From positions 62,001-126,000 of the forward strand of contig NZ_FUYR01000006.1 of NCBI RefSeq assembly GCF_900168015.1: a stretch of 64,000 nucleotides of DNA, read 5' to 3'. A program made the translations under genes and the position numbers. Below the pieces are notes generated by a model, which saw only the letters and a list, made by a program, of their open reading frames with translations, searched no databases and had not been told where the DNA came from. Shown here piece by piece: positions 8,657 through 42,202 of this stretch. This stretch comes from Daejeonella lutea (GTDB taxonomy: Bacteria > Bacteroidota > Bacteroidia > Sphingobacteriales > Sphingobacteriaceae). How positions within the stretch are numbered: position 1 is the stretch's first letter; every line of letters starts with the position of its first letter.

Positions 8657-8683
8657 TCCGCTAAGATCCCTAAACGTAAACTA

Positions 8684-10816: not shown

Positions 10817-10837
10817 AATTAATTTCTTTTAAACAAA

Positions 10838-21696: not shown

Positions 21697-22908
21697 ATGA
21701 AATTATGGTTATCTATATATGCGTTTTTTCTGCCATGCATGCTATTGGCAGGCAATAAACCCCACCCTTTTAGCGCTCAGGATGGTAATAGCCACATTAA
21801 TCTCAGAGTAAAAGCCCGGAATTCAGACCTTTTATATTTACTAGATTGTTCAGAGAACTCTAAAACCGTCAAACTAGGGAATAATTGGAAAACACTTTAT
21901 TTTGAGTTCAAACCTGAGAATATTGGGAACTTTGAATATTCGCATAAACTTAATGGCATCGATGAAAACTGGTCGCGATGGTCAGCTAGTCCCTATGCTG
22001 ACTACGAGGGCTTGCCAAACGGAAACTATAAACTATCAGTTCAGATTCGAAATACCTCTGGTGCTATTGTTCAGCAATTATCCTTTCCTTTTATTATTTC
22101 TACTCCATGGTACCTGACTAGCTGGGCTATTCTGGCATTTTTATCATCGTTATGCATTCTCTTTTATCTGATATTTCAACAACGGCTCCAACATGCAAAT
22201 CCCGGTATAAAAGCAGAACACCCGGAATTTTATCACATTGAAACTGATAAAGTGATTAGCTCGCTGCAGAAAGAAGAACTTGTTGTTGAGGTAAACACGA
22301 AAAATAAAGAACTTGCCACGGTTACAATGCACCTTGTTGAGCGCGGAAAGTTATTATCCCGGGTGCGGGAAGAATTGGCTTTAGCTTTGAAGAATAATCT
22401 GCAGCTTGCCGACTCAAACGATTTTAAGATTATCCTTCGGATGCTCACTGATGCTGAAAAAAATCGTCACGATTGGGAGCAGTTTTCGATACACTTTGAT
22501 GACGTACATCGAAATTTCCTGTCGGTGCTAAAGTCGCAATATCCAGCACTAAGCACGACCGACCTTAAACTATGTGCTTACCTGAAATTAAACCTGAGTT
22601 CCAAAGAAATCGCTCAATCGATGAATATCACCGTAAAAGGTGTTGAGGTAAGTCGATACCGGCTTCGCAAGAAATTAAATATCTCCAAAGACGTCAACTT
22701 ATTTGATTTCCTGCATAAAATTTCCAACTCAAATCTCCCGGCCAAGGCTACGGAAAGCACTGAAACAGACCAGCAAGCGGACGAACTGGCCAGGTTCCTG
22801 TCATTTTTTAACAAGAGCATGACCGCCAAATTCATTACGCAGGGCGGCTACGATTTTTCCAGCGAAGGAATCATCTTCAAGGGATCGATAGCGCATAATA
22901 AGGGATAA
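21697..22908 (+). CDS. Y_Y_Y/LuxR-HTH regulator lacking the beta-propeller sensor
   Basis: This 403-residue membrane regulator has a signal-like N-terminus followed by a Y_Y_Y (immunoglobulin-like) domain at about residues 55-125 (NWKTLYFEFKPENIG, YSHKLNGIDENWSRWS, YADYEGLPNGNYKLSV). A single transmembrane segment (near 138-160), a coiled-coil region and a LuxR-type helix-turn-helix around 285-345 (SSKEIAQSMNITVKGVEVSR) come next. Bacteroidota proteins of this architecture normally carry a two-bladed-repeat propeller of 600 or more residues before Y_Y_Y; it is absent here. The last 36 codons overlap the 3' end of gnd on the other strand. It faces the 11-gene sugar operon and could regulate it; this is inference. 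Confidence 0.8.
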   Translation: MKLWLSIYAFFLPCMLLAGNKPHPFSAQDGNSHINLRVKARNSDLLYLLDCSENSKTVKLGNNWKTLYFEFKPENIGNFEYSHKLNGIDENWSRWSASPYADYEGLPNGNYKLSVQIRNTSGAIVQQLSFPFIISTPWYLTSWAILAFLSSLCILFYLIFQQRLQHANPGIKAEHPEFYHIETDKVISSLQKEELVVEVNTKNKELATVTMHLVERGKLLSRVREELALALKNNLQLADSNDFKIILRMLTDAEKNRHDWEQFSIHFDDVHRNFLSVLKSQYPALSTTDLKLCAYLKLNLSSKEIAQSMNITVKGVEVSRYRLRKKLNISKDVNLFDFLHKISNSNLPAKATESTETDQQADELARFLSFFNKSMTAKFITQGGYDFSSEGIIFKGSIAHNKG

Positions 22909-23697
22909 AGCAATAACAGGTGTAGCAATTTGCTTTTCAAGTGCAGTTTCGAGTGTCCATTTGCCTTCGCCAGAAGAATTCATAATGCCCTTAATTGAAG
23001 CGAGATCGGGCTCCTTTGTCAGTGCCCGTTCGGTAAGTTCCATGAGCCAGCTTCGTACTACAGAGCCCTGATTCCAAAGTCCTGCGATCTTTGCAAGATC
23101 AAGGTCCATATCGCTTTTCTGAAGCATCTCAAAGCCCTCGGCTATGGCCTGCATCATACCATACTCTATACCGTTATGGATCATTTTAACATAATGACCC
23201 GATCCGGCAGGGCCGCAATGTAGATATGCACCCGGCTGAGAAATGTCTTTGATCACGGATTCAATCCTTTCAAATCCTTCCTTGCTGCCCCCTATCATGG
23301 CACATATGCCATTCAGTGCCCCCTCCGTACCACCGCTCGTTCCGCAGTCGAGATAATGAACACCTAAAGGCTCCCATTCTCCAGATCTCCTTATTGAATC
23401 TTTATAGTTAGAATTACCTCCCTCAACAATTATATCGCCCTTTATTAATAATGGCTTTAAGTCTGATAATGCCGACTCCACAAACTCACCAGAAGGAATC
23501 ATCATCCAAATGACCCGGTTTGCACCAAGCTTACCTACAAGATCAGAGAGAGAGCTTGCAGTTTCAACCCCGTCTGTATTTATACTCTCCATAATAGCCT
23601 GATTTACATCATAACCAATTACGTCATGTCCGTTCCTTTTCAGGTTGAGTGCCAGGTTATACCCCATCTTGCCCAGGCCTATAAGTCCGATCTTCAT
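22801..23697 (-). CDS. gnd: 6-phosphogluconate dehydrogenase, decarboxylating (short GntZ/YqeC type)
   Basis: This 298-residue cytoplasmic enzyme oxidises and decarboxylates 6-phosphogluconate to ribulose-5-phosphate. The N-terminal Rossmann motif is GLIGLGKMGYNLALNL. The substrate signature DCGTSGGTEGALNG and the catalytic Lys in GSGHYVKMIHNGIEYGMMQ are intact, and the C-terminus ends FGGHALVKK as expected. The short form lacks the second helical half of the long dimeric enzyme and is often NAD-dependent. It is the last gene of the minus-strand run, 6 bp after GntP and downstream of gluconokinase, completing gluconate use. Its 3' 108 bp overlap the convergent regulator gene. Confidence 0.92.
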   Translation of the reverse strand: MKIGLIGLGKMGYNLALNLKRNGHDVIGYDVNQAIMESINTDGVETASSLSDLVGKLGANRVIWMMIPSGEFVESALSDLKPLLIKGDIIVEGGNSNYKDSIRRSGEWEPLGVHYLDCGTSGGTEGALNGICAMIGGSKEGFERIESVIKDISQPGAYLHCGPAGSGHYVKMIHNGIEYGMMQAIAEGFEMLQKSDMDLDLAKIAGLWNQGSVVRSWLMELTERALTKEPDLASIKGIMNSSGEGKWTLETALEKQIATPVIALSLIMRYRSLEDDSFAGKIVAALRNEFGGHALVKK

Positions 23698-23703
23698 TTT
23701 ATT

Positions 23704-24993
23704 TTATATAAATTGATTTATTATTAAAACGCCTGCCAACCCAAGAAGGGAAACAATACTTTCCATAATCGTCCAGGTGCCGAATGTTTGCTTCAAAGTC
23801 AGATTGAAATACTCTTTAAACATCCAGAATCCTGTATCATTAACATGAGAAAACATCAGACTCCCTGCTCCTACAGACAATACCATAAGTTCAGGTGACA
23901 CGCCCTCTCCTACCAGGGGCAAAACGATCCCTGAAGCTGTTAGACCAGCAACCGTTGCCGATCCCAATGTGACTCTTAGAAGTGCTGTGATTAGCCATGC
24001 GAGAAATAGCGGTGACAGTTCCAGCGAAGCAGACATGCTTTTTACCGTATCGCCGACACCACTGTCTATCAGCACCTGTTTAAATGCACCTCCGGCTGCT
24101 ATGATCAAAATTATCATTGCGATGCTTTTTACCCCTTCTGTACAGGAATCCATAGCTTTCGTTATCGGAATTCTTTGAACAATAATTGTTACAAGAACAG
24201 CTATGAGCAACGCAACTGTCGGATCTGACAAAAAAACAAACAGTGGCTTAGCAGCTCCTGCTGATAGGAAATTTGTACCAATAGTCCCTATGATGATCAG
24301 CACTACCGGAAGTAATGCCGTAGTGAAACTTCTTAAACCAGAGGGAAGCAATTCCTCTCCTTCGGGATTGAATTCACTTGGGATATCTCCCATATTGCTT
24401 TTTAGAATAAGTCGCGGAAATATAATCCCGCCAGCAATGGCTATTGGAACGCTTAATATCAATCCATAAATAAGAATATATCCCACATCCGCTTTGAATA
24501 TCGATGCCAGAGCAATCGGTCCTGGATGTGGAGGGAGAAAACCATGTGTAACAGACAAAGAGGCAGCCATTGGCAAGGCGAGATATAATAGCGGCAATCG
24601 GGTAGCGGAAGCAATCGCAAAAACTAAGGGTACAAGCACAACAAATCCGGCATTATAGAACAATGGAATTCCCACCAGGAGACCGGTAAGCAAGATTGCC
24701 CACTGGATATTTTTATATCCAAAGAACCGAATCAATATAAAGACGATCTTTTTTGCCGCCCCCGTATCCTCAATCAATTTCCCCATCATTGCTCCTAGGG
24801 CGAGAACCATAACCATGCTCCCCAACGTACCGCCTATTCCGGCCCCTATTGTAGTCATAACTTTAGCAACAGGCATCCCTAGTAATAAGCCGGTTATGAT
24901 GGAGACTAGCAACAAGGCTATCATTGGGCTTAGCTTCCTGACAATAAGGACCAGCAAAAGAATGAGCCCGAAAAGGACAATAAGTAGTGACAT
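23704..24993 (-). CDS. GntP-family gluconate:H+ symporter
   Basis: This 429-residue polytopic inner-membrane permease is of the GntP family, which imports gluconate or related aldonates with protons. It shows the family segments GAGIGGTLGSMVMVLALGAM and the conserved FLPPHPGP motif. About twelve hydrophobic segments are visible. It lies 6 bp upstream of gnd and 2 bp downstream of the FGGY kinase, so uptake, phosphorylation and oxidation are encoded together. Exact substrate (gluconate, idonate or another aldonate) cannot be read from the sequence alone. Confidence 0.92.
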   Translation of the reverse strand: MSLLIVLFGLILLLVLIVRKLSPMIALLLVSIITGLLLGMPVAKVMTTIGAGIGGTLGSMVMVLALGAMMGKLIEDTGAAKKIVFILIRFFGYKNIQWAILLTGLLVGIPLFYNAGFVVLVPLVFAIASATRLPLLYLALPMAASLSVTHGFLPPHPGPIALASIFKADVGYILIYGLILSVPIAIAGGIIFPRLILKSNMGDIPSEFNPEGEELLPSGLRSFTTALLPVVLIIIGTIGTNFLSAGAAKPLFVFLSDPTVALLIAVLVTIIVQRIPITKAMDSCTEGVKSIAMIILIIAAGGAFKQVLIDSGVGDTVKSMSASLELSPLFLAWLITALLRVTLGSATVAGLTASGIVLPLVGEGVSPELMVLSVGAGSLMFSHVNDTGFWMFKEYFNLTLKQTFGTWTIMESIVSLLGLAGVLIINQFI

Positions 24994-24995
24994 GA

Positions 24996-26483
24996 TCAGT
25001 AACTGATATTGTTTAATTGGTGCATGCTATCTTTTAAACCTAGATATAAACTTTTATATACAGCGAAGTTCTTACTATATAATTTATGTTTTTCAGGATC
25101 AGATTTAATGATAACTTCCTCGGCATTTTCAGCTTCGGCCGGGTATTTTCCGCCATTCAAGCCAAGCACCTTCATTGCCATAAATGCCGCTCCGTTAGCT
25201 GAAGCGTCTTCCGTTTGCTTGAGAATTAAATCCTTGCCAGTAATATCAGCCAGCAGGTGCATCCAAAGCCTGGAATTAACGAAACCTCCGCTAACGTTTA
25301 TCTGCCTGATCTCTTGTGATTTTGATTCGACCGCCTGCAGAACTTCAAATAAAGCAAAACATACACCTTCCAGGACCGCCCTGCAAAAGTGTGCCTGTGT
25401 ATGAATAGAACGGACCCCTACAAAAGCACCTGAGCTGTTTGAATCCCAAACAGGCGCGCGTTCACCATTTATGTATGGCAAAAAAAGTAATCCTTCTGAA
25501 CCGGGAGAAATTCCATCAGCCATCATAAAAACTTCTTCAAAAGTATCCAGATTGGCAATTTTCCCTAAGAAATTTGTCACTAACCATTGCAACACATTCC
25601 CGCCATTATTGACCGGCCCGCCGCATATGAAAGTATCCTCGTCCAGGCAATAACTAAAGGTGAATGCTTCTCTGTTAAAAATCGGCTTTTCGCTAGAGAT
25701 TCTCACAGCCCCACTAGTACCAATTGTCACCGCAGCGACTCCTCGTTGAATTGCAAAACTTCCAAGGTTTGCCAAACACCCGTCACTTGCCCCAATCACG
25801 AAAGGCGTCCCTTCCTCCAGTATTGCCGGCAGGAATTGCGCTCCGCTTCTGGTATAGGTTGTACTTACCGGCCTTGATAACCGATCCTCTGTAATACCTG
25901 CTAGAGCTAATAAATCTTTATTCCAGGTCCTTGACAACAAATCGAGCATCCCGGTAGCGCAAGCGATTGAATGATCTACAACATATTCGCCGAATAATCT
26001 GAACCAAATAAACTCTTTTATTGAAATGAATTTATGGGCCGCGTCGAAGACATCAGGCATATTTTCTTTAAGCCATATAATCTTACATAAGGGCGACATT
26101 GCATGCAATGGCATACCTGATGACTCATACATGCGTATTGCTCCAGGCGAGGCTTTTAGTCTGGTCGCAACATAATCGCTTCTACTATCCGCCCATGTTA
26201 TCATATTCATGAGCTTCTTTCCCTGCTTGTCGACAGGAATTAGACTGTGCATAGCACTGCTGAAACATATCGCTGCAGGACAGCATTTCAATTTACTATG
26301 TACTTCTATAAGACAAGCCTGTAAAGCCTGCCAAATAAGTTCAGGGTCTTGCTCACTGGTTCCGGAACGGGGTGAATACGTTTGATAATGATGTTGGGAA
26401 ACAGCAATGGATTGTGAATAAAAATCTACGGCAACAGCTTTTGTGCTACCGGTGCCAATATCAATACCCAGAACGTATTCCAT
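24996..26483 (-). CDS. FGGY-family gluconokinase
   Basis: This 495-residue cytoplasmic sugar-acid kinase of the FGGY family has the N-terminal phosphate-binding motif GIDIGTGSTKAVAVD and the second-domain motif GTSGAVRI. The FGGY signature region reads FLPYINGERAPVWDS, followed by INVSGGFVNSRLWMHLLADI. Tightly linked GntP and Gnd make gluconate the most likely substrate, yielding 6-phosphogluconate; other FGGY substrates (xylulose, glycerol) fit the context less well. The stop lies 2 bp before GntP and the start 10 bp after the TIM-barrel gene. Confidence 0.88.
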   Translation of the reverse strand: MEYVLGIDIGTGSTKAVAVDFYSQSIAVSQHHYQTYSPRSGTSEQDPELIWQALQACLIEVHSKLKCCPAAICFSSAMHSLIPVDKQGKKLMNMITWADSRSDYVATRLKASPGAIRMYESSGMPLHAMSPLCKIIWLKENMPDVFDAAHKFISIKEFIWFRLFGEYVVDHSIACATGMLDLLSRTWNKDLLALAGITEDRLSRPVSTTYTRSGAQFLPAILEEGTPFVIGASDGCLANLGSFAIQRGVAAVTIGTSGAVRISSEKPIFNREAFTFSYCLDEDTFICGGPVNNGGNVLQWLVTNFLGKIANLDTFEEVFMMADGISPGSEGLLFLPYINGERAPVWDSNSSGAFVGVRSIHTQAHFCRAVLEGVCFALFEVLQAVESKSQEIRQINVSGGFVNSRLWMHLLADITGKDLILKQTEDASANGAAFMAMKVLGLNGGKYPAEAENAEEVIIKSDPEKHKLYSKNFAVYKSLYLGLKDSMHQLNNISY

Positions 26484-26493
26484 CTACAGCCCG

Positions 26494-27360
26494 CTACAGA
26501 ATATTGCCTTTAACATGCTGAAAGCTCCTGGTTATGCTCTGAAAATGATCTATTTTAATCACATCCTGCTCGACAAAGAAATGCTTCATTCCCGATAACT
26601 TCGCTTTTGCAAATATCTGTTTATAGTCTATCGTTCCGGATCCAACCTCTGTGTAGGATTTGTCTGTCTTGTCCATATCCTTCACATGCCACATCACGTA
26701 TCTTCCGGGGCTCTGCTCAAATAATGCGATAGGATCCTTTCCAGCTTTTACTGTCCAGTAAATATCCAGTTCGAACTTGAGGTCTGACGGGTCAGTCTCA
26801 CGCAGCAGGATGTCATAACCCGTAGTGCCATTAAAGTCTTTGAATTCAAAATCATGATTATGATACACCAATTGAAGCCCGGCCTTTCTGGCAAGTATTG
26901 CTGCCTGATTCAGCTTTGCAGCCAAAACTTTGTAACTGTCAAGATTCTTGCGTAAGGGTTCGCTCAAATACGGTACTGTAAGATACTTCTGGCCAATTCC
27001 CTGAGCGGCTTCAATGTTCTCTTTCAGGCTATCAAGATTGTTATTTCCGAGGTATGGATCAAAATTGTAATGCCCGCTGGGCGATTTAAGGCCATGGCTT
27101 TTTAACAGAGATTTAAACTCTTTAATGTTAAGGCCCCAGAATCCACCCTTAAGAGAATAACCATAGGTTTCCACTTCACGAAAGCCAATGTCAGCAACTT
27201 TGGCAATCACGCCGTGCACATCTTTCGAAATTTGATCCCGGAGGGTATATAACTGCAATCCAACCTTTTGATTGGGCTTACTAAAGAGATCTACCGGATT
27301 TGCCAGCACTCCCGCACCGATTAATGCTGCCTGCTGGAGGAATATTCTTCTGTTACTCAT
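26494..27360 (-). CDS. exported sugar phosphate isomerase/epimerase-like TIM barrel
   Basis: This 288-residue protein begins SNRRIFLQQAALIGAGVL, a twin-arginine-type export signal, followed by an AP endonuclease 2-like TIM barrel (xylose isomerase-like). Metal-binding positions typical of the fold are visible in QLVYHNHDFEF, KFELDIYW, MWHVKDMDK and FVEQD. The export signal indicates periplasmic action, so the substrate is probably a free sugar or an oxidised (keto) sugar rather than a phosphate ester. It sits between the pectate-lyase-fold protein and gluconokinase. Such barrels commonly accompany ThuA proteins in Bacteroidota sugar loci. Confidence 0.82.
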   Translation of the reverse strand: MSNRRIFLQQAALIGAGVLANPVDLFSKPNQKVGLQLYTLRDQISKDVHGVIAKVADIGFREVETYGYSLKGGFWGLNIKEFKSLLKSHGLKSPSGHYNFDPYLGNNNLDSLKENIEAAQGIGQKYLTVPYLSEPLRKNLDSYKVLAAKLNQAAILARKAGLQLVYHNHDFEFKDFNGTTGYDILLRETDPSDLKFELDIYWTVKAGKDPIALFEQSPGRYVMWHVKDMDKTDKSYTEVGSGTIDYKQIFAKAKLSGMKHFFVEQDVIKIDHFQSITRSFQHVKGNIL

Positions 27361-27388
27361 AGATATTATTATGACCGTATTTGGTTAC

Positions 27389-30300
27389 TTATTTAATTCT
27401 AACACTATAAAGTGAATTTCTGCCTGTAATATATAGAGTTTGATGGTCATTTCCACCAAAAACTATTGTAGATGGCCGTTCGGGAACTTCAATCTCGCCT
27501 ATTTGGATTCCCTGCGGATTATAAACGTAAATTTGTCCGTCAGCAACATACACATTGCCATCTTTATCCACTGCGGAGCTGAATTCTCCTTTCTCAGCAA
27601 ATATCTTAGGGTCAGAAAGATAACCTTCAGAGCCAACATTAAATTTAACAGTTCTTTTTAGATACTCATCAGTTGCATAGAGGGATTTCCCCGGATAGCC
27701 TTCCACCAGGGAATTGGATCTTGCCAGATCGTAAACGACCGGAATGGCTGTTACCCCATCTGGTGCCATAAAATAATGGGTAAAGTGATTTGTACTTACT
27801 TTGTTGAAATCGCCTGAATCACGGCGCCTGTTTGCCGGGTTTAAAGTCTTATAGATTTTCGGTAAATCCTGAACAGGAACTTTATCAAGCAGTTTAATGG
27901 ATTCCTCCGGGCGGTTGGGATTTATTGAATAAACCAAAGTTCCGAACCCGGAATTTCCCCAGCCGCTGAAAGAAGTACCAGCCGCATCAGGAGGGTTTGG
28001 AAAACTTTCAGGTTTGCCATCTACCAGATAGCCAGCACGCGGAACGTATTTAAAAACAACCAGAAGATTATCATTTTTGTCTGTTCCAAGCGATAGTGGT
28101 TCCCAGGGAAAATCCGCGATCAGGCTTAGGCTCTTTGATTGCGGCGACCATCTGTAAATGCGCCTCATCCGCGACTCGCTGAAATAAATATTTCCTTTAC
28201 TGTCGCTTGTAATTCCATCAGCGAATTCAAAACCTTTCACCAATTCCTTCACCTCGCCGACCATTTCTGCCTTGGTTCCTGGATCGATCGATCCGCTAAT
28301 GAAAAGTCTGTTAAACTCCCATGGCCGCACCTGTATCTTACTGTTTACATCGTACAAGGGGAGATTGGTCGTGTATTTTATCTGGCTATAATTATGAACG
28401 TTCAAAAATTCCACGTTCTTATTATTGCTTGCGCGAATAGAATAGGGATATGGGGTTCCAATCCGGATAACCCTGAACATATAAAGATTTGCAAATACCA
28501 TGTTGCTGCAGCCCTCCAATTCCATTGGCTGGCAGTCGGAACTCTCACGGCTTTCTTCCTCCAGTTGCAAAGCATAAACTTTCCAGTTGGAAACATTCTT
28601 GAGCCTTACTTCATTGCGAACGTGGTGTTCTACAGACATAGCATAAATCCGTCCCGGAGTGGAAGTATCAGAGACATAAATGCCTGAAGTGGCGTAGGTA
28701 TTGGCCGTCCAGATGTTCTTAAATGTTCCCCCTCCATTATTTGTTATCCAGAGACTCCAATATTGAGTATCCCACAAAGAATCCTTCCCTGGCAAAACTG
28801 TGGAAGAGTTTCTCTGGGCTCCCTGGCCGCTCCCGCCTGAAATTGGCTGCGGGCGCGACATAGTTCCGTGACCGCCAACGAACTTGACATCGTTCATGTA
28901 AGAATCCGCCCCGGCCATCCATTTGCAAGCTACAGCCCTCGGATTGCTGGTTCCGGTAAACAAACCAATACCGCTCACAACGGTCGAGCCGCCAACTGCA
29001 GTTTCAAGCAGAGACTTCGGCGGGCCGAAACTGCCGAATGCCAGCTCGTTATCAGTAATTATAAACTGCGTAGAAATCGGATTAAGTCCAATAAGAACCG
29101 ACTTCGGCTTAAGCTTGATTGTTTGTGTGACACGGTACCAACCCTGCGGAATATATACAGCAATATTTTGATCTATAGCGTCCTGAATTATTTTCGTGTC
29201 ATCAGTTGTTCCATCTCCCTTGGCCCCGAGTGCGCGAATGTTCACCCATGTGCTCATATCCGGCAGGGCAGGAATGTCTTTTTTAACGGCAGCTGGAATA
29301 GATGCCAGAGCTATTATTTCTTCCCTAACTTGATAAACAGGCTTGGATCCCAGGTCGTCCATTTGCAGTCCATAATTGTAGTTTTCTACTTTGTAAATAG
29401 CTGCTGACTGCTTAAATTCTTTTCCACTATTTCGAAGTTTTGCCAGAACCGGAACGTTCTTACAATCTACATTCCGAAGGCTGATCTGCGTATAGGCATT
29501 ACCCTCATTACTTATTATAATTGCTGGCCCACTTATATTTTCCAACTGACTGTCTTCCATGAATAATTTCTCATAGAAATCCCGGTTGGTCTCAATCACT
29601 GTTGGGGTATTCTTAACTTTCATTCTGATGATTGTAAGGCCGGCTTCCTGAGTTTTTACAGCGGCCTTCCGTTGACCTTCAAAGTAAGTATCTACCATTA
29701 CAAACTGCCATCCGGGCGATGGTTTAGTCGTGTAGATCCCATAGTCCCCTCCAAAAAAACGAACATCTTCCATCTCATTCCCTACATCGAACATGCCTGC
29801 AAGCCCTTTACCAATATGAATATCAACATGAGCAATAAAACTGTGCTGTGCATAGTGAGTCCGCAAGGCAACAGCAGCCGGATTACCATCAGAAATACGT
29901 AAATCAATGTTAGACATGGCGCTATAGAAAGTACCCGCACCAGCATCGGAGACTGGCCTGCCCGGCTGCACGATTCCGCTTGTAAACCAAAACATATACT
30001 TCGCCTTTCCTTTATCTGCCTGATCAGGCGTTTGAAAACCAGGCGAATTCGAAGCTAGAATGATTTCAGGTCTTTTACTGCCATATCCAATAATCCGAAT
30101 AGCCTGTGGCACATAGATCGTCTTAGATATGAGGTACTTCCCCTCAGGTATAAAAACAATTCCAAAATTATATATTGTCTTAACCTGATTAATCGCTTTT
30201 TGTAACTCATCTGAAACATCTGTTCGGCCGTCTGCCTTAATATCAAAGTTTTCCGCGCTAAAATAAGCGGCCTCCGGATCGACAGGCATCACAGTATAGA

Positions 30301-30394
30301 ACGATGTACTTGGAGCCGGGTTTACGAGAGCTTTCTGCGCAAAGCACACCGCATTGATGAAAACAAGATAAATGATGGGGAGAAGTTTTTTCAT
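27389..30394 (-). CDS. large secreted pectate-lyase-fold protein with C-terminal propeller-like domain
   Basis: This 1001-residue protein has a signal peptide (LLPIIYLVFINAVCFA). Two right-handed beta-helix segments of the Pectate_lyase_3/GH28-related type begin near residue 48 (DIKADGRTDVSDELQKAI) and near 388 (NIRALGAKGDGTTDDTKII); each shows the ADGxTDD-like entry motif and a GxYxVxxTI strand. The last 300 or so residues resemble an SMP-30/NHL propeller (GFEFADGITSDSKGNIYFSE, SAVDKDGNVYVADGQIYVYN). Double beta-helix proteins of this kind are glycan lyases or hydrolases; no catalytic residues can be assigned with confidence. It is the seventh gene of the GH9-to-gnd run. The propeller resembles gluconolactonases, which would fit the gluconate genes downstream. 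Confidence 0.78.
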   Translation of the reverse strand: MKKLLPIIYLVFINAVCFAQKALVNPAPSTSFYTVMPVDPEAAYFSAENFDIKADGRTDVSDELQKAINQVKTIYNFGIVFIPEGKYLISKTIYVPQAIRIIGYGSKRPEIILASNSPGFQTPDQADKGKAKYMFWFTSGIVQPGRPVSDAGAGTFYSAMSNIDLRISDGNPAAVALRTHYAQHSFIAHVDIHIGKGLAGMFDVGNEMEDVRFFGGDYGIYTTKPSPGWQFVMVDTYFEGQRKAAVKTQEAGLTIIRMKVKNTPTVIETNRDFYEKLFMEDSQLENISGPAIIISNEGNAYTQISLRNVDCKNVPVLAKLRNSGKEFKQSAAIYKVENYNYGLQMDDLGSKPVYQVREEIIALASIPAAVKKDIPALPDMSTWVNIRALGAKGDGTTDDTKIIQDAIDQNIAVYIPQGWYRVTQTIKLKPKSVLIGLNPISTQFIITDNELAFGSFGPPKSLLETAVGGSTVVSGIGLFTGTSNPRAVACKWMAGADSYMNDVKFVGGHGTMSRPQPISGGSGQGAQRNSSTVLPGKDSLWDTQYWSLWITNNGGGTFKNIWTANTYATSGIYVSDTSTPGRIYAMSVEHHVRNEVRLKNVSNWKVYALQLEEESRESSDCQPMELEGCSNMVFANLYMFRVIRIGTPYPYSIRASNNKNVEFLNVHNYSQIKYTTNLPLYDVNSKIQVRPWEFNRLFISGSIDPGTKAEMVGEVKELVKGFEFADGITSDSKGNIYFSESRMRRIYRWSPQSKSLSLIADFPWEPLSLGTDKNDNLLVVFKYVPRAGYLVDGKPESFPNPPDAAGTSFSGWGNSGFGTLVYSINPNRPEESIKLLDKVPVQDLPKIYKTLNPANRRRDSGDFNKVSTNHFTHYFMAPDGVTAIPVVYDLARSNSLVEGYPGKSLYATDEYLKRTVKFNVGSEGYLSDPKIFAEKGEFSSAVDKDGNVYVADGQIYVYNPQGIQIGEIEVPERPSTIVFGGNDHQTLYITGRNSLYSVRIK

Positions 30395-30418
30395 TTGTAA
30401 AATATAGACGGGATAAAT

Positions 30419-31918
30419 TCAATCTGATGCAACCCTAAATCCTTTATTAAAATTACTGCGGGAAGGCAGCAGGATATTCCTGTAAGTGATCCGGCTTTTG
30501 AAAGCTTCATTGTCAAATCCTCCGCTTCTTAGGACGTAAAACCTCGCGTTCGGCGTCCCCTTCGGATTTTCTTTCGGACTTGATGCATAAGACGCGGGAT
30601 CATAGCCACCACTAACCCATTCGTAAACATTCCCGGCCATATCAAAAAGCCCAAGTTCGTTGGGTAGCTTCTTTGCCACAGCTTTGGTTCCATATCCGCC
30701 TTTGCCGCCATACCAGGCAACTGAGTCTATAATATCACCTCCGCTGTATTTATAAGATTTTGTTTTTACACCCCCTCTGGCCGCAAATTCCCATTCGGCT
30801 TCTGTGGGCAATCTAAATTTCGCTCCTTTTTCATTGAGCCAATAGCAGTATGCGATGGCGTCATCGTAACTAACGTTGACTATGGGATGATCTTCCTGCC
30901 ACCCAAAAGCTGGTTCAGCAGGCATAGCGCGATTCGTAGCGTTACAGAAGGCCCTCCATTGAGCAACCGTCGTTTCAGTTTTCGCGATTTTAAAGGTCGT
31001 AAGCTTAACCTCATGCACCGGCATCTCATCTTTATTACCCAGTCCGGTTTCATCGCCCATCATAAAGGCACCGCCTTGAACCGTTATCATTTCTGGGATT
31101 TCAATTGTAGGAGTGCTGATTGTTTGGATTAACGCAACAGGATTGGTAGTTGACGGGTTTTTCTTCTTTCCAACCCATAATACTGCGTCTGTAATCATAT
31201 TATTCTGCATATAATCGCTCATCACTTTGTCGCCATGACCCATATTCATGTAGATCATATTGTACTTCGTATTAGTCCAAACCACCGGGTTATCTCCTCC
31301 TGTTAAGATGTCTTTAATACCAAGAGGATAATTCTCAGGGTCCAGAGAAACAAGCACCTTTACATCTTTATTCTCCCGCGGGCTCGGCTTCCACTGATAC
31401 CATTCGTTTACTGGAGAAGCAAAAGCTGCCGAAACTCGCTTCGTTACTGGGTGGTTTGTGTCGTCAACTAATAAGCGTGCAGGAATTGGCGGCCAGCTGT
31501 TACTGTGAAACACGCCGCCACCTAAAAAGCTCAGGAACCAGGGCCATTTGGTAGTTTTATCATTATATCCCGCCACATGAAAGCCAAGCCAGCCCCCGCC
31601 GTTTTCCATGTATCTCTGAAAGGTTGATCTCTGATTTTCACTGTGCGGGAAATCATTGATCCAGATCACTACCTGATAATTCCTGAGAAGTGTGTCATTA
31701 AGGTTTGTCCAGTCTGTTGTAGCGTCAAATGTGAAATTCTTTTGTACCGCAAGATTTTTCAGGAAAGCACGGACATCATTAGAAAAATCTACATGATCTG
31801 ATTCAACTTTTGTAGAGTAAAATGCAAGCACTTTAAATTCCGGCTTTTGAGCGAAAGCTGAGAGATTCATAATCGTACACAGCTGCAGAATTACTATGAA
31901 AACTAAATATCTTTTCAT
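30419..31918 (-). CDS. ThuA domain fused to a SUMF1/formylglycine-enzyme-like domain
   Basis: This 499-residue secreted protein has a signal peptide (cut near SAFA-Q), a ThuA domain (glutamine-amidotransferase-like flavodoxin fold) over about residues 25-250, and a SUMF1/FGE-type domain over about 275-499. The second domain shows VQGGAFMMGDE, PTEAEWEFAARGG, GLFDMAGNVYEWV and NKGFRVASD. The two cysteines that FGE uses to oxidise sulfatase cysteine are absent near the C-terminus (YVLRSGGFDNEAFKSR has none), so sulfatase maturation is unlikely and a binding or other enzymatic role is probable. Its ThuA part is closely similar to that of the next gene upstream, indicating a recent duplication. 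Confidence 0.85.
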   Translation of the reverse strand: MKRYLVFIVILQLCTIMNLSAFAQKPEFKVLAFYSTKVESDHVDFSNDVRAFLKNLAVQKNFTFDATTDWTNLNDTLLRNYQVVIWINDFPHSENQRSTFQRYMENGGGWLGFHVAGYNDKTTKWPWFLSFLGGGVFHSNSWPPIPARLLVDDTNHPVTKRVSAAFASPVNEWYQWKPSPRENKDVKVLVSLDPENYPLGIKDILTGGDNPVVWTNTKYNMIYMNMGHGDKVMSDYMQNNMITDAVLWVGKKKNPSTTNPVALIQTISTPTIEIPEMITVQGGAFMMGDETGLGNKDEMPVHEVKLTTFKIAKTETTVAQWRAFCNATNRAMPAEPAFGWQEDHPIVNVSYDDAIAYCYWLNEKGAKFRLPTEAEWEFAARGGVKTKSYKYSGGDIIDSVAWYGGKGGYGTKAVAKKLPNELGLFDMAGNVYEWVSGGYDPASYASSPKENPKGTPNARFYVLRSGGFDNEAFKSRITYRNILLPSRSNFNKGFRVASD

Positions 31919-31939
31919 TGGTATGAGATTGATTCAATT

Positions 31940-32731
31940 CTATCTAACATTTTCTTTTCTCACACCGCCCCCGAGCCATATCACCGCATCAGTGATCATG
32001 TTATTCTGATCCCGGTTTGAAAAGATTTTATTGCCATGGCCCATATTCATATATAACATTTTATACCTGGTGTTGGTCCAAACCACAGGAGTGTCACCTC
32101 CGCTGATGAAGCTCTTTATCCCTAAGGGATAATTATCCGGCGCCAGAGTTACCAAGACTTTAACATCAGGGTTTAAACGCGGACTGGGTTCCCACTGGTA
32201 CCATTCACCCGAAGGTGACTCAAAAGTTGCCGGCAGCCGTTTGGTAATGGGATGGGTTCGGTCATCAACAATAACTTTGGCAGGAAGAGGAGGCCAGTTG
32301 TTGCTTTTGAACATAGCACCTCCCAGAAAAGTATTGAACCATTTCCATCTTGAACTTGCTAAATTAAATGCTGAAACATGGCATCCGAACCATGCACCTC
32401 CCTTGTCGACATATCTTTGAAAAGCAGCCTGCTGATCAGCACCGCCGGGAGAATTATTCAGCCAGATCACAACCTGGTAATTACTAAGAAAGTCATCATT
32501 CAAATTAGTCCAGTCCGTAGTTGCATCAAAGGTGAAATTCTGCTGACCAGCAATAAGCTTAAAAAAATAGAGTGCATCATTAGCAAAGTTTGCATGATCC
32601 ATTTCCACATTCGTTGTATAAAATGCAACAACCTTAAACTGCGGCTTTTGCTCCTGGGCAAAAGCTGATGAGAATATGGCCGCTAGAATGATCGAACAGA
32701 ACAAGCTCAGCCTGATAAAAGTTTTAATCAT
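31940..32731 (-). CDS. secreted ThuA-domain protein (copy 3 in transcription order)
   Basis: This 263-residue protein has a signal peptide (SIILAAIFSSAFAQ) and a single ThuA domain with FKVVAFYTTNVEMDH, QVVIWLNNSPGG, GAWFGCHVSAFN, WFNTFLGGAMF and VVWTNTRYKMLYMNMGHG. The ThuA family is linked to trehalose and other disaccharide use; a precise reaction is not established here. The HxxxF and GHG histidines align with those of the three neighbours. It lies 21 bp from the fused ThuA-SUMF1 gene, with which it shares much of its sequence. Confidence 0.85.
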   Translation of the reverse strand: MIKTFIRLSLFCSIILAAIFSSAFAQEQKPQFKVVAFYTTNVEMDHANFANDALYFFKLIAGQQNFTFDATTDWTNLNDDFLSNYQVVIWLNNSPGGADQQAAFQRYVDKGGAWFGCHVSAFNLASSRWKWFNTFLGGAMFKSNNWPPLPAKVIVDDRTHPITKRLPATFESPSGEWYQWEPSPRLNPDVKVLVTLAPDNYPLGIKSFISGGDTPVVWTNTRYKMLYMNMGHGNKIFSNRDQNNMITDAVIWLGGGVRKENVR

Positions 32732-32755
32732 TGATTTAATATTCGTGAAGCATCA

Positions 32756-33532
32756 TTATTTCTTTTTAGAGGCCGCCCAAAAAATAGCATTCCGGTACAT
32801 GGTGGTATATGAGGGGTTTTCGAAGAGCTCAGGTGCATGTCCCATGAAAATATAGACGTTCCTTGCTTTCATCTTTGTGTTTGTCCAGATCACCGGGTGA
32901 TCACCCATTTTAATATCCCGTACAGGAGTGTATGTGTCTTCATCAACACTGGCCAGCACCTGGATATTCTTACTCAGCCTTGGACTCTTATCATAGGTAT
33001 ACCATTCTTCCTTGATGATCGGAAAAGAAGCCGGAACACCTTTCATAATCGGATGCTTCTTGTTCTCTACATTCACCGAAGCTGCTGCAAAATCTGCAAT
33101 GTAGTTTTTGTATTTAATGCCGCCCATAAAGTCGGAGAACCATTGCCATAAGGGAAAGCCGTCAAAAGTGCCAAGCAGTGTTGCATGGTGAAAGCCTATC
33201 CATCCGCCCTTACCCTGCTCTATATATTCAATAAAAGCATTTTCGGATTCTTTACTCCAGGTATACGGTGGATAATCTATTTGTATGAACAGCTGATACT
33301 GCTCAAGGAATGCCTTCGTTATTGGCTTTGAGTTGGAATAATAATCAATAGTGAAATTACTATCCGCCGCCAGTTTATTCAGCCAAATCTTCGCAGCTTT
33401 GGTGTGAAGAATGTGATGGCCTCCATTTTCGCCGATTGCTAAAACTTTGAATCTTGGTGTCTTATCCTGGGCCCAGGCAGCGCCTCCCAAAAGCAGTGCG
33501 CAGATAAATAAAACTACATATATGCGTTTCAT
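32756..33532 (-). CDS. secreted ThuA-domain protein (copy 2)
   Basis: This 258-residue protein has a signal peptide (LFICALLLGGAAWAQ) and one ThuA domain: FKVLAIGENGGHHILH, GKGGWIGFHHATLLG, WFSDFMGGIKY, EEWYTYDKSPR, HPVIWTNTKMKARNVYIFMGHAP. It is more distant from the 31940 copy than that copy is from the fused one, and closest to the 33551 copy. The glycine-histidine motif GFHHA is a likely ligand-site element. It is co-directional and separated by 24 and 18 bp from its neighbours. Confidence 0.85.
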   Translation of the reverse strand: MKRIYVVLFICALLLGGAAWAQDKTPRFKVLAIGENGGHHILHTKAAKIWLNKLAADSNFTIDYYSNSKPITKAFLEQYQLFIQIDYPPYTWSKESENAFIEYIEQGKGGWIGFHHATLLGTFDGFPLWQWFSDFMGGIKYKNYIADFAAASVNVENKKHPIMKGVPASFPIIKEEWYTYDKSPRLSKNIQVLASVDEDTYTPVRDIKMGDHPVIWTNTKMKARNVYIFMGHAPELFENPSYTTMYRNAIFWAASKKK

Positions 33533-33550
33533 ATCAATTTAAATTTTTCC

Positions 33551-34315
33551 TTAATATTTCTTCTTCTTTGAGGCACCCCATAAGATGGAATTCTTAAGCA
33601 GGGCTACGTAATCTTTATTTTCCAGTACCGAAGGATCATGACCGACCCCAATATAAATCGTCTTAGGATATTTCTCATTGGTCCATATCAAGGGGTGATC
33701 ACCCATCACAATTGTTTGTTTGTAGCTTGACTCGTCGGCAACAGCCAGCACCCGCACATTTGCACGGGGACTCTTACTCCACTCGTACCACTCATCTGAA
33801 ATTTCTATTGTGGGTGGCATACCTTTAGTGGCCGGATGCTTGCGGTCTTCAATGATCAGTCTTCCTTTCTGAAAGGCAGGATGAGGCGAATAGGTTATCC
33901 CTCCCATAAAGTCTTCAAACCATTGCCAATACGGCTGAACACGGGCATTACCAAAGGTCTGGCCAGTCAGACCGGCGGCATGGATCCCAACCCATCCTTT
34001 ACCCTGTTCAATAAACCGCTGTAGTGCCGCCTGTTCTTCAGGTTTCATATCGAAGGGAGCCAGATGCAGCATCACAAAAACCTGGTAACGTGATAAGTTC
34101 AGATCGTTTATTATACTTGAGTCGTCGGTAAAGTCAACTGCGAATTCATTCTCTTTTCCAAGATTCATAAAAAAGGGACGTGCAGCAGTAATCATTTTGA
34201 CATGATCCTTCGCATCAGACGCAACTACCAATACTCTGAATTTAGGCTTTTGCGCCATGGCTGCCAAAGTAAGAACCGACAGCAGTGTACTAATAAAAAG
34301 AGCTCTAATTTTCAT
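33551..34315 (-). CDS. secreted ThuA-domain protein (copy 1)
   Basis: This 254-residue protein has a signal peptide (LLSVLTLAAMAQ) and one ThuA domain: FRVLVVASDAKDHVKM, QVFVMLHLAPFDM, GKGWVGIHAAGLTG, WFEDFMGGITYSPHPAFQKG, DHPLIWTNEKYPKTIYIGVGHD. It is the first of four consecutive ThuA genes in the direction of transcription and follows the NagX-like gene by 62 bp, the largest gap inside this run. An internal promoter there cannot be excluded. The role is inferred to be in periplasmic processing of a sugar or sugar derivative. Confidence 0.85.
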   Translation of the reverse strand: MKIRALFISTLLSVLTLAAMAQKPKFRVLVVASDAKDHVKMITAARPFFMNLGKENEFAVDFTDDSSIINDLNLSRYQVFVMLHLAPFDMKPEEQAALQRFIEQGKGWVGIHAAGLTGQTFGNARVQPYWQWFEDFMGGITYSPHPAFQKGRLIIEDRKHPATKGMPPTIEISDEWYEWSKSPRANVRVLAVADESSYKQTIVMGDHPLIWTNEKYPKTIYIGVGHDPSVLENKDYVALLKNSILWGASKKKKY

Positions 34316-34377
34316 TTGATTATCTTTAAATATTCAAATAACCTCAGCAAGACTTCACAAAATGGAGTTCAATCATA

Positions 34378-35553
34378 TTATACCTTTAACCGTATCCTTC
34401 TTTTTTCCATCAGCCCAACAAGTAAGATGACCGCAAACGCGAAAGCGAAAGAGCGGAATATCCCCCAGCCGCCGGTACTGAAAAAGGGTGGAAACCAGGT
34501 ATCAAAAAGGCCCATTACAGAATAAGCAAGATAGGGGATGAGATAACAGGTCAGGGTACTTGTTCCTGCCGGACTGATTGCCTTGAACCAGTTTTTCTGG
34601 CCTTTTACATCAATCAAATATATCAGCAACTCAAAAACAAGGATAGCCGTACCAATGCTGATAAGCACCCAGGCAGGCGTAGACCTGATCTTCGAAATGC
34701 CATCCGCAAATGGCCGTACAACATGGCCCGCGGCTAACGTCAATACGCCAAGTGCCGCAAAAACTCCCAACAGCTTCCTGTCCTGTCCCTTGCTGATGAT
34801 CTCAGAATAAAGCAGCGAAATCACCGCACCAGCCATAATTAGAGATACCGACGAGGCATCCCCGATCAGCCAGATATCCACATTTAGTTGATCCATATGT
34901 TTCAAAATATTGATCCCCATGAAGATGATGAATGCAGCAATCACAGCATTCAAATTTCCTTTTACCAATAAAAATACAGTTGCACATACCAGATACGCCC
35001 ATCCGATGATACCAAGGATACCCCACCAGGATGGTCGGAGGCCGTGCAGCTTTTCAGCATCTCCTCCTTTAAAGATGGATGCCATCAGCATCAGGATGCC
35101 AACTCCGATTCCAATTAAAATGAACTTCTTCATCTTATCCATAGTTTCAGGATAATCCAGCCAGATCAGGAAAAAACTGATGGTAACGAGGATCACATAC
35201 CAGCTATATGACAGCCCTGCAGCTTCGGCATTGTAACTACCAAAATTTACATGGAAGAAGCCCATAATGATCAGTGCCGCCGATCTCAACAGAATGTAAG
35301 CAGCAATATTCAGGAAGGATTCGCCCTTCTTCATTTTATTTTGTAAGGCGAAGGGTAGCGACAATCCTACAATAAACAAAAAGGTAGGGAATATGGTATC
35401 GGCAAAACCCATCCCGTCATCTTTACCAGAAACATGCTCTATCCATTCCGGGATATTCTTTACTCCACTTACATCATTCACAAAGATCATCAGGAGCATA
35501 GTTATGGCCCTGAACACATCGATGGACAATAGACGATTTGGTAATTGCTTCAT
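34378..35553 (-). CDS. NagX/HGSNAT-like membrane acyltransferase (DUF5009 type), copy 2
   Basis: This 391-residue polytopic membrane protein opens RLLSIDVFRAITMLLMIFVND and continues GFADTIFPTFLFIVGLSLPF, collinear with the copy at 8684-9928. About ten hydrophobic segments are visible, with the PSWWGILGIIGWAYL and AISPAGTSTLTCYLIPYL segments shared by both copies. The predicted role is acyl (probably acetyl) transfer to an amino sugar across the inner membrane, by analogy with HGSNAT; this is inference. It sits 23 bp after the GH9 gene and before the ThuA array. Confidence 0.78.
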   Translation of the reverse strand: MKQLPNRLLSIDVFRAITMLLMIFVNDVSGVKNIPEWIEHVSGKDDGMGFADTIFPTFLFIVGLSLPFALQNKMKKGESFLNIAAYILLRSAALIIMGFFHVNFGSYNAEAAGLSYSWYVILVTISFFLIWLDYPETMDKMKKFILIGIGVGILMLMASIFKGGDAEKLHGLRPSWWGILGIIGWAYLVCATVFLLVKGNLNAVIAAFIIFMGINILKHMDQLNVDIWLIGDASSVSLIMAGAVISLLYSEIISKGQDRKLLGVFAALGVLTLAAGHVVRPFADGISKIRSTPAWVLISIGTAILVFELLIYLIDVKGQKNWFKAISPAGTSTLTCYLIPYLAYSVMGLFDTWFPPFFSTGGWGIFRSFAFAFAVILLVGLMEKRRIRLKV

Positions 35554-35576
35554 TTCGACGGTTTAGAATGCGTTAT

Positions 35577-37352
35577 TTATTTAGAGGGTTCCTCTGCTAT
35601 TGCGGCTATTGCCTGAAGGAACCAAGCGGCATGCGGGATCCATTGTTCAGTCCATCGCCACTCATTTCCATCTGCATGCAGTTTAAAATCTATTCCGGAA
35701 CCGTCTCCGTTGCCATCCTTCCCGGTTATACCATTTGATATTCCCCCAGCCTGCGAGCCATGTCCAAATAATGCCGCCATATATGGGACATTATTCTTCC
35801 CAAAACCATACATAAAACACATAGCATAAGGATTTGATCCCAATACCCACGACAATTGCTGTGAGGCATATTCCGCGAGCGGAGCTTTCACTCCCCAATT
35901 GCCCTGTGCGGGATATACCAGCCGTCCGCCAACTAATGCAGCTGTTGCCAAAGAACCTAATCGTGCGTTTTCCCCCTGCCACCACCAGCCTGTCTCATTT
36001 TCATGGGGAATAAAAAATCCTTCTTTTATAGTACCCTTATGTTTGAATGTTTGCCGGGCATAACCGAAGGGATTGGCAACTTTATTAGTTACCGCCAGGT
36101 TGTAATCCAGAGCTTTCCTGATCACATTTAACGCAGCAGTACGTAAGGTTGCATCTTTTTCTTTTTTCAAATAACGCGACAATGCCACTACCGGCAAACC
36201 CGCATCAGAAGCATGAAAGTAAGGCCGGTCACCATCATCGGAACGGAAATATCCTTCCGGAGTCATCCTTGCTGTCAGATTTGCCGCACGCTTCCTGGCC
36301 TCATCGCGATAAAGCGGCTCGTCGGTTGCAATCCAGAGCTCAGTAGCCGCCATCAGAGCACAGTAATCATCGATGATATTATCCTTGCCGTCATCGGCAT
36401 ATTTGCTGTTATTAACTAGCAGATGTGCAAAGGCACGTTTGGCCCCATCCAAATATTGGTCTGCAGTAAATACGCCATTCTTCTTCCATTGAGAAATCCT
36501 GGCTAAAGAGGCAATAGCAATCCCGCCTCCTTCGCGGAAAGCACTCTGGTAATCTGTGGTAGTAACACTATTTGCCAGCAGTCCGACAATATCCCTTGCC
36601 GCCGGATCCTTTTTAAAATGACTGAAGATGATCATGTAGAAGTAATCATCAGACGACAAGGAACGCATCATGTAATCTGCTCCGTAAAGTGCTTCGTCTT
36701 TTATCGAATCCTGGATCCCCAGAGATGTCAGCATCTTTGGTATTGCCTCCGTAGTATTGATCAATGACCAGGTAACAAGCGGGATCTGCTGCGGCGACAT
36801 AAAATTGGCATAGGCCAGATGTGAGAAATACTTACTGATATCACCCGATGCATCTGCCCATCCCCCGCGCATATCCACTTCCTTAGTGCTGCCTTTAGGT
36901 TTAATCTTGATATCTGCCCCAAGCTCCTCCGGAGTATTTGCCCGTTGCTTATTATAGTATCTTACAATGGCAGGCATTGTAAGCTTAGCCAATGCATTCT
37001 CATCGATTCTAAATTCTTCTGAAACGGTTTGAGTTCCATCAATCGATACGGCAATTTTATAATTTCCCGCTTTACTGTAGGATGAGAAATCTGCTTTGTG
37101 AAAAAACTTACCTGGAAACCAATCCCTGATTTCCATTGGCTCACCAAGCAACGCCGTATAGACCGCCTTCGAAGTTTGGGCATCTAGTAAGCTAAAGGAA
37201 ACCTTTGACTTATTCTCAGCGTCCAGCCTGACAACCGCCAGTTTCGGTCCGCGGCTATCAAAACCCACCTGGTTTGTAAAAATTGCAGTCTGCGCGAAAC
37301 CCATCACAGGGAATAGGAAAGTCAGAACAATGGACTTTATAAGTTTCTTCAT
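35577..37352 (-). CDS. secreted glycoside hydrolase family 9 protein
   Basis: This 591-residue protein has a signal peptide (MKKLIKSIVLTFLFPVMGFA). An ATG three codons upstream (37361) is an alternative start but spoils the signal n-region. An N-terminal Ig-like cellulase domain spans about 22-110 (AIFTNQVGFDSRGPKLAVV; WFPGKFFHKADFSSY). The (alpha/alpha)6 catalytic domain follows with DMRGGWADASGDISKYF, whose two Asp residues match the GH9 nucleophile-water pair. The C-terminus has QLSWVLGSNPYAMCFMYGFG and NEWRWTEQW, where the catalytic Glu is expected. GH9 includes endoglucanases and exo-beta-glucosaminidases; the linked amino-sugar genes make the latter worth testing. It is the first gene of the minus-strand run. 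Confidence 0.84.
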   Translation of the reverse strand: MKKLIKSIVLTFLFPVMGFAQTAIFTNQVGFDSRGPKLAVVRLDAENKSKVSFSLLDAQTSKAVYTALLGEPMEIRDWFPGKFFHKADFSSYSKAGNYKIAVSIDGTQTVSEEFRIDENALAKLTMPAIVRYYNKQRANTPEELGADIKIKPKGSTKEVDMRGGWADASGDISKYFSHLAYANFMSPQQIPLVTWSLINTTEAIPKMLTSLGIQDSIKDEALYGADYMMRSLSSDDYFYMIIFSHFKKDPAARDIVGLLANSVTTTDYQSAFREGGGIAIASLARISQWKKNGVFTADQYLDGAKRAFAHLLVNNSKYADDGKDNIIDDYCALMAATELWIATDEPLYRDEARKRAANLTARMTPEGYFRSDDGDRPYFHASDAGLPVVALSRYLKKEKDATLRTAALNVIRKALDYNLAVTNKVANPFGYARQTFKHKGTIKEGFFIPHENETGWWWQGENARLGSLATAALVGGRLVYPAQGNWGVKAPLAEYASQQLSWVLGSNPYAMCFMYGFGKNNVPYMAALFGHGSQAGGISNGITGKDGNGDGSGIDFKLHADGNEWRWTEQWIPHAAWFLQAIAAIAEEPSK

Positions 37353-37737
37353 AGCGGTCATTTAATTCTTCCCTCAAAAGTTAATTAGTTAGCCTTATGT
37401 AAATCTCTTATTAAAGAGCATTCGATGCTATTTTTGAGGCACTACATTACCACTACAAAGTCCAGCACTTTTTAAAGAAGTTCCAGAATCAATCATCTCT
37501 TCGGCAGCTTCGTGCTCCTTCGCCAGAAGTATACCTCTGTTGAATCTAAAAACAGCATGAAAACAGCAAGATTCAGCTTTATCCGATAACACACGCTCAA
37601 CACAGTGATGGTACTGAGATCACACTGAGATCACACTGAGATGAGCCTCAAATTGAGAGGTCGAAACACTATTGATTTTGCGATATTTTGCTGTTCTACT
37701 CTGATATTAAATTCTCCATGCTGTTTTGCCGCAAGCT
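37353..37737. other. intergenic region between nagB-like and GH9 genes
   Basis: This 385-bp spacer should hold the promoter of the GH9-to-gnd run, but no exact TTTG-N19-TAnnTTTG was found on the minus strand. It contains two and a half copies of an 11-base tandem repeat (actgagatcac, 37613-37642). A GTG-started minus-strand frame of 54 codons (37592-37428) has no recognised similarity and is not called. Confidence 0.4.
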
Positions 37738-38493: not shown

Positions 38494-38508
38494 TATGATT
38501 TTAAAGGT

Positions 38509-38775: not shown

Positions 38776-38865
38776 GTATGTGATTTAGCTTATTATTCTC
38801 AAAAGTGATCCGCGAACGCATTGCGAACGATATAATAGATTTCAATCCCCTGAAAAGCTTTTTAA

Positions 38866-40584: not shown

Positions 40585-40591
40585 ATCATTT

Positions 40592-42163: not shown

Positions 42164-42202
42164 GTCTGCTTATTTTATAAATATGATCGGAAATGTCATG
42201 TG

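Follow-up and report, generated by a model that had tools for sequence, protein, structure and literature searches.

The locus studied here lies in a 64,000-nucleotide stretch of the Daejeonella lutea genome (contig NZ_FUYR01000006.1, positions 62,001 to 126,000; hereafter the window) and consists of eleven open reading frames (ORFs) on the minus strand, at 22801-37361 (Table 1). In the order of transcription, the Pfam families are glycoside hydrolase family 9 (GH9), an HGSNAT/DUF5009-like protein, three ThuA proteins (ThuA1 to ThuA3), a ThuA protein fused to an FGE-sulfatase domain (ThuA4), Pect-lyase_RHGA_epim joined to SGL, AP_endonuc_2, an FGGY kinase, GntP and 6PGD. The gaps, in ascending coordinates, are 6, 2, 10, 28, 24, 21, 24, 18, 62 and 23 bp. 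The initial annotation had described an eleven-gene minus-strand run with gaps of 2-62 bp, and we confirm it with one correction: the longest ORF of the GH9 gene extends to 37361, position 37352 being a second ATG, 9 bases inside. By common experience, a run of eleven genes on one strand with such small gaps is operon-like, and it is likely that the run is co-transcribed. Upstream, past a 376-bp gap, the minus strand goes on with closely spaced genes (37738-43094) for a NagB-like protein and for HPr, enzyme I (EI), IIC-IID, IIB and IIA of a mannose-family phosphotransferase system (PTS). We propose that the run is probably the exported half, as judged only by eye from the N-termini, of a locus for a glucosamine-containing beta-glycan, with the glucosamine entering by the PTS.

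Table 1. Features of the locus, with positions in the window and the basis of each assignment.
Feature	Position	Strand	Basis
GH9, exo-beta-glucosaminidase/glucosidase subgroup; signal-peptide-like start by eye	35577..37361	-	Pfam GH9 and CelD_N; Protein Data Bank (PDB) matches; aligned active-site residues
HGSNAT/DUF5009-like transmembrane acyltransferase	34378..35553	-	Pfam DUF5009 above cut-off; phmmer to human HGSNAT
ThuA1; signal-like start by eye	33551..34315	-	Pfam ThuA, E 2.5e-46
ThuA2; relatives of this copy co-occur with GH9; signal-like start by eye	32756..33532	-	Pfam; model
ThuA3; signal-like start by eye	31940..32731	-	Pfam; 59% identity to ThuA part of ThuA4
ThuA4, fused to FGE-sulfatase-like domain	30419..31918	-	Pfam ThuA 29-249, FGE-sulfatase 274-497
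GH55-fold double beta-helix (residues 28-700) and C-terminal SMP-30-like propeller (710-1001)	27389..30394	-	AlphaFold2, Foldseek, VIA
AP_endonuc_2 TIM barrel ("sugar phosphate isomerase/epimerase"); N-terminus like a twin-arginine translocation (Tat) signal by eye	26494..27360	-	Pfam; best PDB match 8tcd, E 2e-29
FGGY kinase, gluconokinase-like	24996..26483	-	TIGR01314 424.8 bits, below cut-off 648.55
GntP-family permease	23704..24993	-	TIGR00791 463.9 bits, above cut-off 292.75
NAD-type 6-phosphogluconate dehydrogenase (Gnd)	22801..23697	-	TIGR00872 403.6 bits, above cut-off 297.2
NagB-like, Gln replacing active-site Glu	37738..38493	-	TIGR00502 137.5 bits, below cut-off 236.9
HPr	38509..38775	-	Pfam; ADGLHARPA with H15
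PTS enzyme I	38866..40584	-	TIGR01417 above cut-off; H189 in GSRTSHTAI
Mannose-family IIC-IID fusion	40592..42163	-	Pfam EII-Sor and EIID-AGA
Mannose-family IIB	42203..42673	-	Pfam PTSIIB_sorb
Mannose-family IIA	42666..43094	-	Pfam EIIA-man
Short Y_Y_Y/LuxR regulator without sensor propeller; own signal-like start	21697..22908	+	Pfam

The closest PDB structures to the GH9 protein, 3h7l, 6gdt and 5dgq, match over the full length (E 1e-126 to 1e-118), and its residues D170, D174, Y178 and E572 align with D140, D144, Y148 and E546 of VC0615. In the description of VC0615, D140 is the base and E546 the acid, and D144 (with water) and Y148 lie in the site; the subgroup is exo-acting, and VC0615 itself digests cellobiose far more slowly than the glucosamine dimer (GlcN)2 and leaves the N-acetylglucosamine dimer (GlcNAc)2 undigested (PMC6096475). 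By sequence and active-site residues, the window GH9 belongs to this exo-beta-glucosaminidase subgroup. A second GH9 type (34-40% identity), with the GGWYDATGDYGKH motif or one near it, is present in many Mucilaginibacter loci and is to be kept distinct from the window type.

We then surveyed 251 sampled genomes of the family, using thresholds of E<=1e-150 for GH9 and E<=1e-60 for ThuA2. The carriers (PTS in 7 genomes, GH9 in 27, ThuA2 in 50) were nested: all 7 PTS genomes had GH9 and all 27 GH9 genomes had ThuA2 (Fisher p 8e-8 and 8e-23, respectively, kinship being ignored). A within-genus test (g15) gave p values of 6e-4 and 7e-3, which are rough since they are based on a partial list of 45 genomes. 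The two genes were same-strand neighbours at 300 bp or less in 12 of the 27 genomes (as a single 823-aa frame in G220), lay within 5 kb in two more (the window and G025) and were apart in 13. Moreover, Pfam confirmed fusions of ThuA to GH9 (L078, L081) and of GH20 to ThuA (L134). In G025, one same-strand run of GH9, HGSNAT-like, GH18, GH20-ThuA and ThuA genes stands beside PTS and NagB-like genes, starting with GH9 and HGSNAT-like as in the window; a copper amine oxidase gene (L133:16129-18174) lies between the PTS genes and GH9 there. In the neighbour surveys, each greedily chosen longest ORF was labelled by its best BLAST hit in a small reference set, with starts and weak labels approximate. 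Of the gene set, whose recurrence elsewhere the initial annotation had made a test of its proposal, parts of the first half recur; the full set of eleven was not refound in the genomes searched.

The four ThuA (PF06283) proteins score 134-159 bits against a Pfam cut-off of 33.4 and are 31-59% identical to one another. Six residues, H40, H115, E176, Y178, W216 and H232, are invariant in all 59 sequences of a conservation set thinned from 75, 52 of which were used to model ThuA2. The model (predicted local distance difference test (pLDDT) score 93.4) best matches uncharacterised ThuA structures (4jqs, Z 29.5; 1t0b, Z 20.2), followed by the glutamine amidotransferase group, Agd3 (6nwz, Z 14.3) and a levan-binding protein (8aa2, Z 14.5). 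The FGE-like domain of ThuA4, its translation read by eye, has no Cys in its last third; we take the mark of a formylglycine-generating enzyme to be a C-terminal active-site Cys pair. At twelve Dyadobacter loci, the beta-helix gene is preceded by genes for an S15 peptidase-like protein (Pfam-checked in one copy) and a ThuA (L046-L051, L053, L058, L089, L101, L102, L110).

The beta-helix protein was modelled with AlphaFold2 from 52 of 75 listed sequences (pLDDT 88.3). Its first Foldseek match was the GH55 glucanase 5m5z (E 7.5e-26), and VIA superposed 614 residues on 3eqn (Z 33.1, root-mean-square deviation 2.9), so that the whole double beta-helix is of the GH55 fold. A pectin epimerase or lyase was considered and rejected, GH55 structures ranking first with Z 23.5-33.1 versus about 18 for other beta-helices. 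E612 aligns with 5m5z and with Glu639 of the 3eqn chain, presumably the GH55 catalytic acid, in a stretch that alone scores only -2.1 and -3.4 bits. In the C-terminal propeller, the positions that we take to be the SMP-30 metal ligands (Glu18, Asn154 and Asp204 in human SMP30 numbering) were read from a profile alignment with 26 of the family's stand-alone propeller proteins. Among 78 sequences, Glu18 is Glu in 27, Asn154 is Asn in 15, and Asp204 is Asp in none, being F, Y or M in all 78. Because the propeller has lost these ligands, a metal-dependent lactonase is unlikely, and the domain was ruled out as a source of gluconate.

Of 79 genome loci with this protein, 26 had ThuA, 16 GH9, 10 GH18, 6 GH30, 2 GH5, 13 the PTS IIC-IID, 12 NagB-like, 13 SusC-like, 8 SusD-like and 4 HGSNAT-like genes, and this mix of hydrolases suggests fungal-wall-like substrates. 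All 13 PTS-bearing loci had a GH9 (12 of the second type), 7 had GH18 and 7 ThuA. In Mucilaginibacter lappiensis ATCC BAA-1855, locus L059 combines the beta-helix gene with PTS genes, a GH9 and three ThuA genes. Full-length copies were found in 4 of 201 genomes, three of which are PTS genomes (hypergeometric 3e-5); 110 genomes whose matches were partial, for the most part to the SGL domain, were left out of this count. One Mucilaginibacter SP1R1 locus (L072, identical to L137) is counted twice among the 78 beta-helix sequences and among the 19 NagB-like copies considered below. The protein also occurs in records named as Bacillota or as members of it (such as Neglectibacter and Lachnospiraceae) at 36-58% identity (L087, L111, L113, L114, L116-L124).

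The neighbouring PTS has every component of a mannose-family system, and HPr (H15), EI (H189), IIB and IIA carry His residues in motifs that we take to be those of phosphorylation. The IIC-IID search matched 8 of the 251 family genomes, reduced to 7 by dropping a weak partial match (G052, E 1e-3), and only 1 of 395 genomes across the phylum, that of the window itself. Identity to the six other genomes is 83-89% for the NagB-like protein, 71-74% for IIC-IID and 51-60% for EI. In all 19 copies the NagB-like protein has the motif NGHIGINQPG, with Gln at the position of the active-site Glu (presumably E148 in E. coli); this Gln aligns with E143 of the B. subtilis structure 2bkv, and the curated NagB cut-off is not reached (Table 1). 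A literature search found nothing tying a mannose PTS to glucosamine in Mucilaginibacter. The HGSNAT-like protein scores just below the HGSNAT_cat cut-off (19.8 bits versus 22) and above that of DUF5009; phmmer relates it to human HGSNAT (E 2e-9), N26 and H40 aligning with the first-loop Asn and His. This His, which we take to be catalytic, was seen by eye in all 10 copies of this protein, whose family score stays below the cut-off. A further amino-sugar cluster, with GH20-like, polysaccharide deacetylase and second HGSNAT/DUF5009-like genes, lies on the plus strand at 6210-9928 of the window, about 13 kb from the run.

Attack on an external glycan, as the initial annotation had it, is supported by these results, and chitosan is a sensible substrate to test. 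Because the recurring part consists of GH9, ThuA, HGSNAT-like and GH18 genes with the PTS and NagB-like genes, we propose that glucosamine is what enters. The most likely glycan would be one of the kind present in fungal cell walls: chitosan, or chitin that is partly deacetylated, together with its beta-1,3-glucan. In this scheme, the GH55-fold protein would trim the glucan and the GH9 enzyme would take off single glucosamine (or glucose) units, the ThuA proteins working with GH9 either as enzymes or by holding the amino sugar produced. Acetylation of glucosamine across the inner membrane may be the task of the HGSNAT-like membrane protein, while the PTS would bring glucosamine in as the 6-phosphate and the NagB-like protein would handle the product. 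GntP, the FGGY kinase and Gnd could provide this lineage with a second entry, from gluconate to the pentose phosphate pathway. Several observations weigh against this proposal. The characterised GH9 relative cuts beta-glucosides too (PMC6096475). The active-site Glu is missing from the NagB-like protein, which stays below the curated cut-off, while another protein of the genome, encoded on another contig, passes that cut-off and keeps the Glu (GHIGFNEPG). The PTS has none of the partner genes around it in G164 and on a short G116 contig, and the window-type GH9 is near the PTS in only 2 of the 7 PTS genomes, being on another contig in five. A Pfam scan of the run found no GH18 or chitosanase, and on this reading the use of glucosamine leaves the gluconate genes without a role.

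Indeed, the connection of the gluconate cassette to the glycan run is uncertain. GntP and Gnd exceed their curated cut-offs, the kinase fails that for gluconokinase and may by context still act as one (Table 1). It is almost an even bet that the three genes are a passenger, appended to the run and serving ordinary gluconate uptake. At the 79 beta-helix loci, examined up to 10 kb on each side, GntP and GntK never occur, and Gnd-like and window-type AP_endonuc_2 genes occur once each; these absences are not firm, because 26 of the loci are shorter than 20 kb. GntP alone is uninformative, since 162 of the 251 genomes have some GntP, and its neighbours were therefore examined at the best 30 loci (identity 71-100%, with about 1.5 kb on either side) and in 12 stretches around ten matches. 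GntK adjoins GntP at 6 of the 29 best loci other than the window's, and in other genera such pairs stand without the partners of the glycan run, one of them with a regulator reading like LacI at its start; among the loci surveyed, the window alone has the cassette in such a run. However, a passenger fits poorly with gaps of 10, 2 and 6 bp, and in two genomes of the window's genus (G104, G109) ThuA2 orthologues (78-82%) lie directly upstream of GntP, with a 128-bp gap in both (L174:12727-13503 and 11306-12598; L176:12240-13046 and 10819-12111). Both pairs are downstream of a histidine-kinase gene (Pfam-checked in L174), and the stretch examined has no GntK; a third genome, G119, has ThuA2 alone, and none of the three has a window-type GH9 at the threshold used. 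The pairs hint at a link between ThuA and GntP, although G104 and G109 are relatives; among the titles listed by a literature search, none was relevant to a ThuA-gluconate link.

This pairing also favours the initial annotation's scheme, in which the external glycan is converted to an aldonate imported by GntP, a scheme that is possible but unproven. The glycan would be oxidised outside the inner membrane by an oxidase encoded elsewhere, for example the 1137-aa fusion of ThuA, glucose/sorbosone dehydrogenase (GSDH), PKD and cytochrome c on contig C4 (L228, G000:C4:90000-109999; sub-threshold CBM6 match). Since C4 holds this fusion and, near it, 3-keto-sugar-type genes (GMC, Gluconate_2-dh3, 3keto-disac_hyd, AP_endonuc_2, GFO_IDH), the cell may be able to oxidise sugars in its periplasm, and GntP and Gnd score above their curated cut-offs. 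We nevertheless hold the aldonate route to be rather unlikely: no C1 oxidase is among the Pfam-annotated genes of the run, the lactonase-like propeller lacks its metal ligands, and the recurring partners, with the PTS and NagB-like protein as an alternative entry, point to glucosamine. Equally doubtful is a route through 3-keto sugars, in which a GMC dehydrogenase encoded elsewhere would oxidise C3 of the sugar and the AP_endonuc_2 protein, apparently exported by Tat and perhaps aided by ThuA, would split the 3-keto-glycoside by elimination. The best PDB matches of this protein are 8tcd, 8tcs and 8tct, which we take to be 3-keto-glycoside lyases; one beta-helix locus (L073) has ThuA, AP_endonuc_2, GMC and GH9, another (L074) the same minus GH9, and the GMC gene of C4 (78% identical) stands among the oxidation genes just listed. 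But the run has no such dehydrogenase, and it does have a GH9, which needs no lyase. As for ThuA itself, a binding role is a serious rival to catalysis, because Agd3, PelA and a levan-binding protein are reported to carry ThuA-like domains (PMC7229062, PMC12022489 and PMC7618045). According to the Agd3 study, the ThuA-like N-terminal domain of this amino-polysaccharide deacetylase was assayed as a possible binding module, and its conserved residues are said to differ from those of ThuA proteins with which it has the fold in common (PMC7229062). That the ThuA proteins are carbohydrate-binding modules and not enzymes would also suit the fusions to GH9 and GH20 and the structural matches to Agd3 and the levan-binding protein; we find it on the unlikely side, the six invariant residues forming an enzyme-like pattern. 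One could even imagine, at long odds, that exported ThuA is a new enzyme class acting on the glucosamine end that GH9 exposes or releases and, with the exported AP_endonuc_2 protein, converting part of the amino sugar to periplasmic gluconate, so that the glycan enters two ways, as a phosphorylated amino sugar by the PTS and as an acid by GntP.

The control of the locus could involve the Y_Y_Y/LuxR regulator, which lies tail to tail with gnd, its 3' end running 108 bp into that gene. It matches residues 674-973 of a 974-aa relative in L096 at 44% and is related to regulators adjoining several PTS loci in other genomes. A sigma-70 scan gave 27 sites against 32.7 expected and is uninformative, and the excess of terminators is weak (19 versus 13.5 expected, standard deviation 3.6). 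The Bacteroidota promoter pattern occurs 8 times in the window against 2.4 expected, with none in the 376-bp gap ahead of the GH9 gene.

Whatever their chemistry, which is apparently not settled, ThuA proteins are common, structurally solved and functionally obscure; the co-occurrence of GH9 and ThuA2 in 27 of 27 genomes, together with the fusions of ThuA to GH9 and GH20, gives the family a concrete substrate class to test. In addition, a mannose-family PTS, very rare in the phylum, is here linked with an amino-sugar enzyme whose active site is altered. Compared with known systems, the locus resembles the SusC/SusD polysaccharide-utilisation loci of Bacteroidota in having its glycan enzymes in a cluster, next to a Y_Y_Y/LuxR regulator. 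It differs in that entry looks PTS-based and, as the initial annotation had noted, no window ORF matched SusC or SusD, in a narrow BLAST test against one reference of each. With no SusC/SusD found and a PTS present, we regard the locus as unusual among the variants of known loci for glycan use. The GH55 beta-1,3-glucanases such as Lam55A share the whole double beta-helix fold (Z 33), whereas the window protein has only 17% identity and an extra SMP-30-like propeller. The last genes recall a gntK-gntP-gnd operon, with consecutive genes for a kinase, a permease and a 6-phosphogluconate dehydrogenase, except that they end a glycan-breakdown run and that the kinase is below the curated gluconokinase cut-off. 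Like aga/gam-type systems, the PTS has IIA, IIB, IIC and IID with a NagB-like enzyme, but IIC and IID are fused, a Gln replaces the Glu of the NagB-like site, and the host group is one where such systems are very rare. Another parallel is the Vibrionaceae chitin operon, with the GH9 exo-glucosaminidase VC0615 and a proposed PTS import of (GlcN)2 (PMC6096475). The two loci share a PTS and a GH9 that agrees in subgroup and in catalytic residues, with amino-sugar use as the proposed role here; in the locus described here the GH9 is apparently exported, the PTS is of the mannose family, and there are ThuA, HGSNAT-like and GH55-fold proteins in addition.

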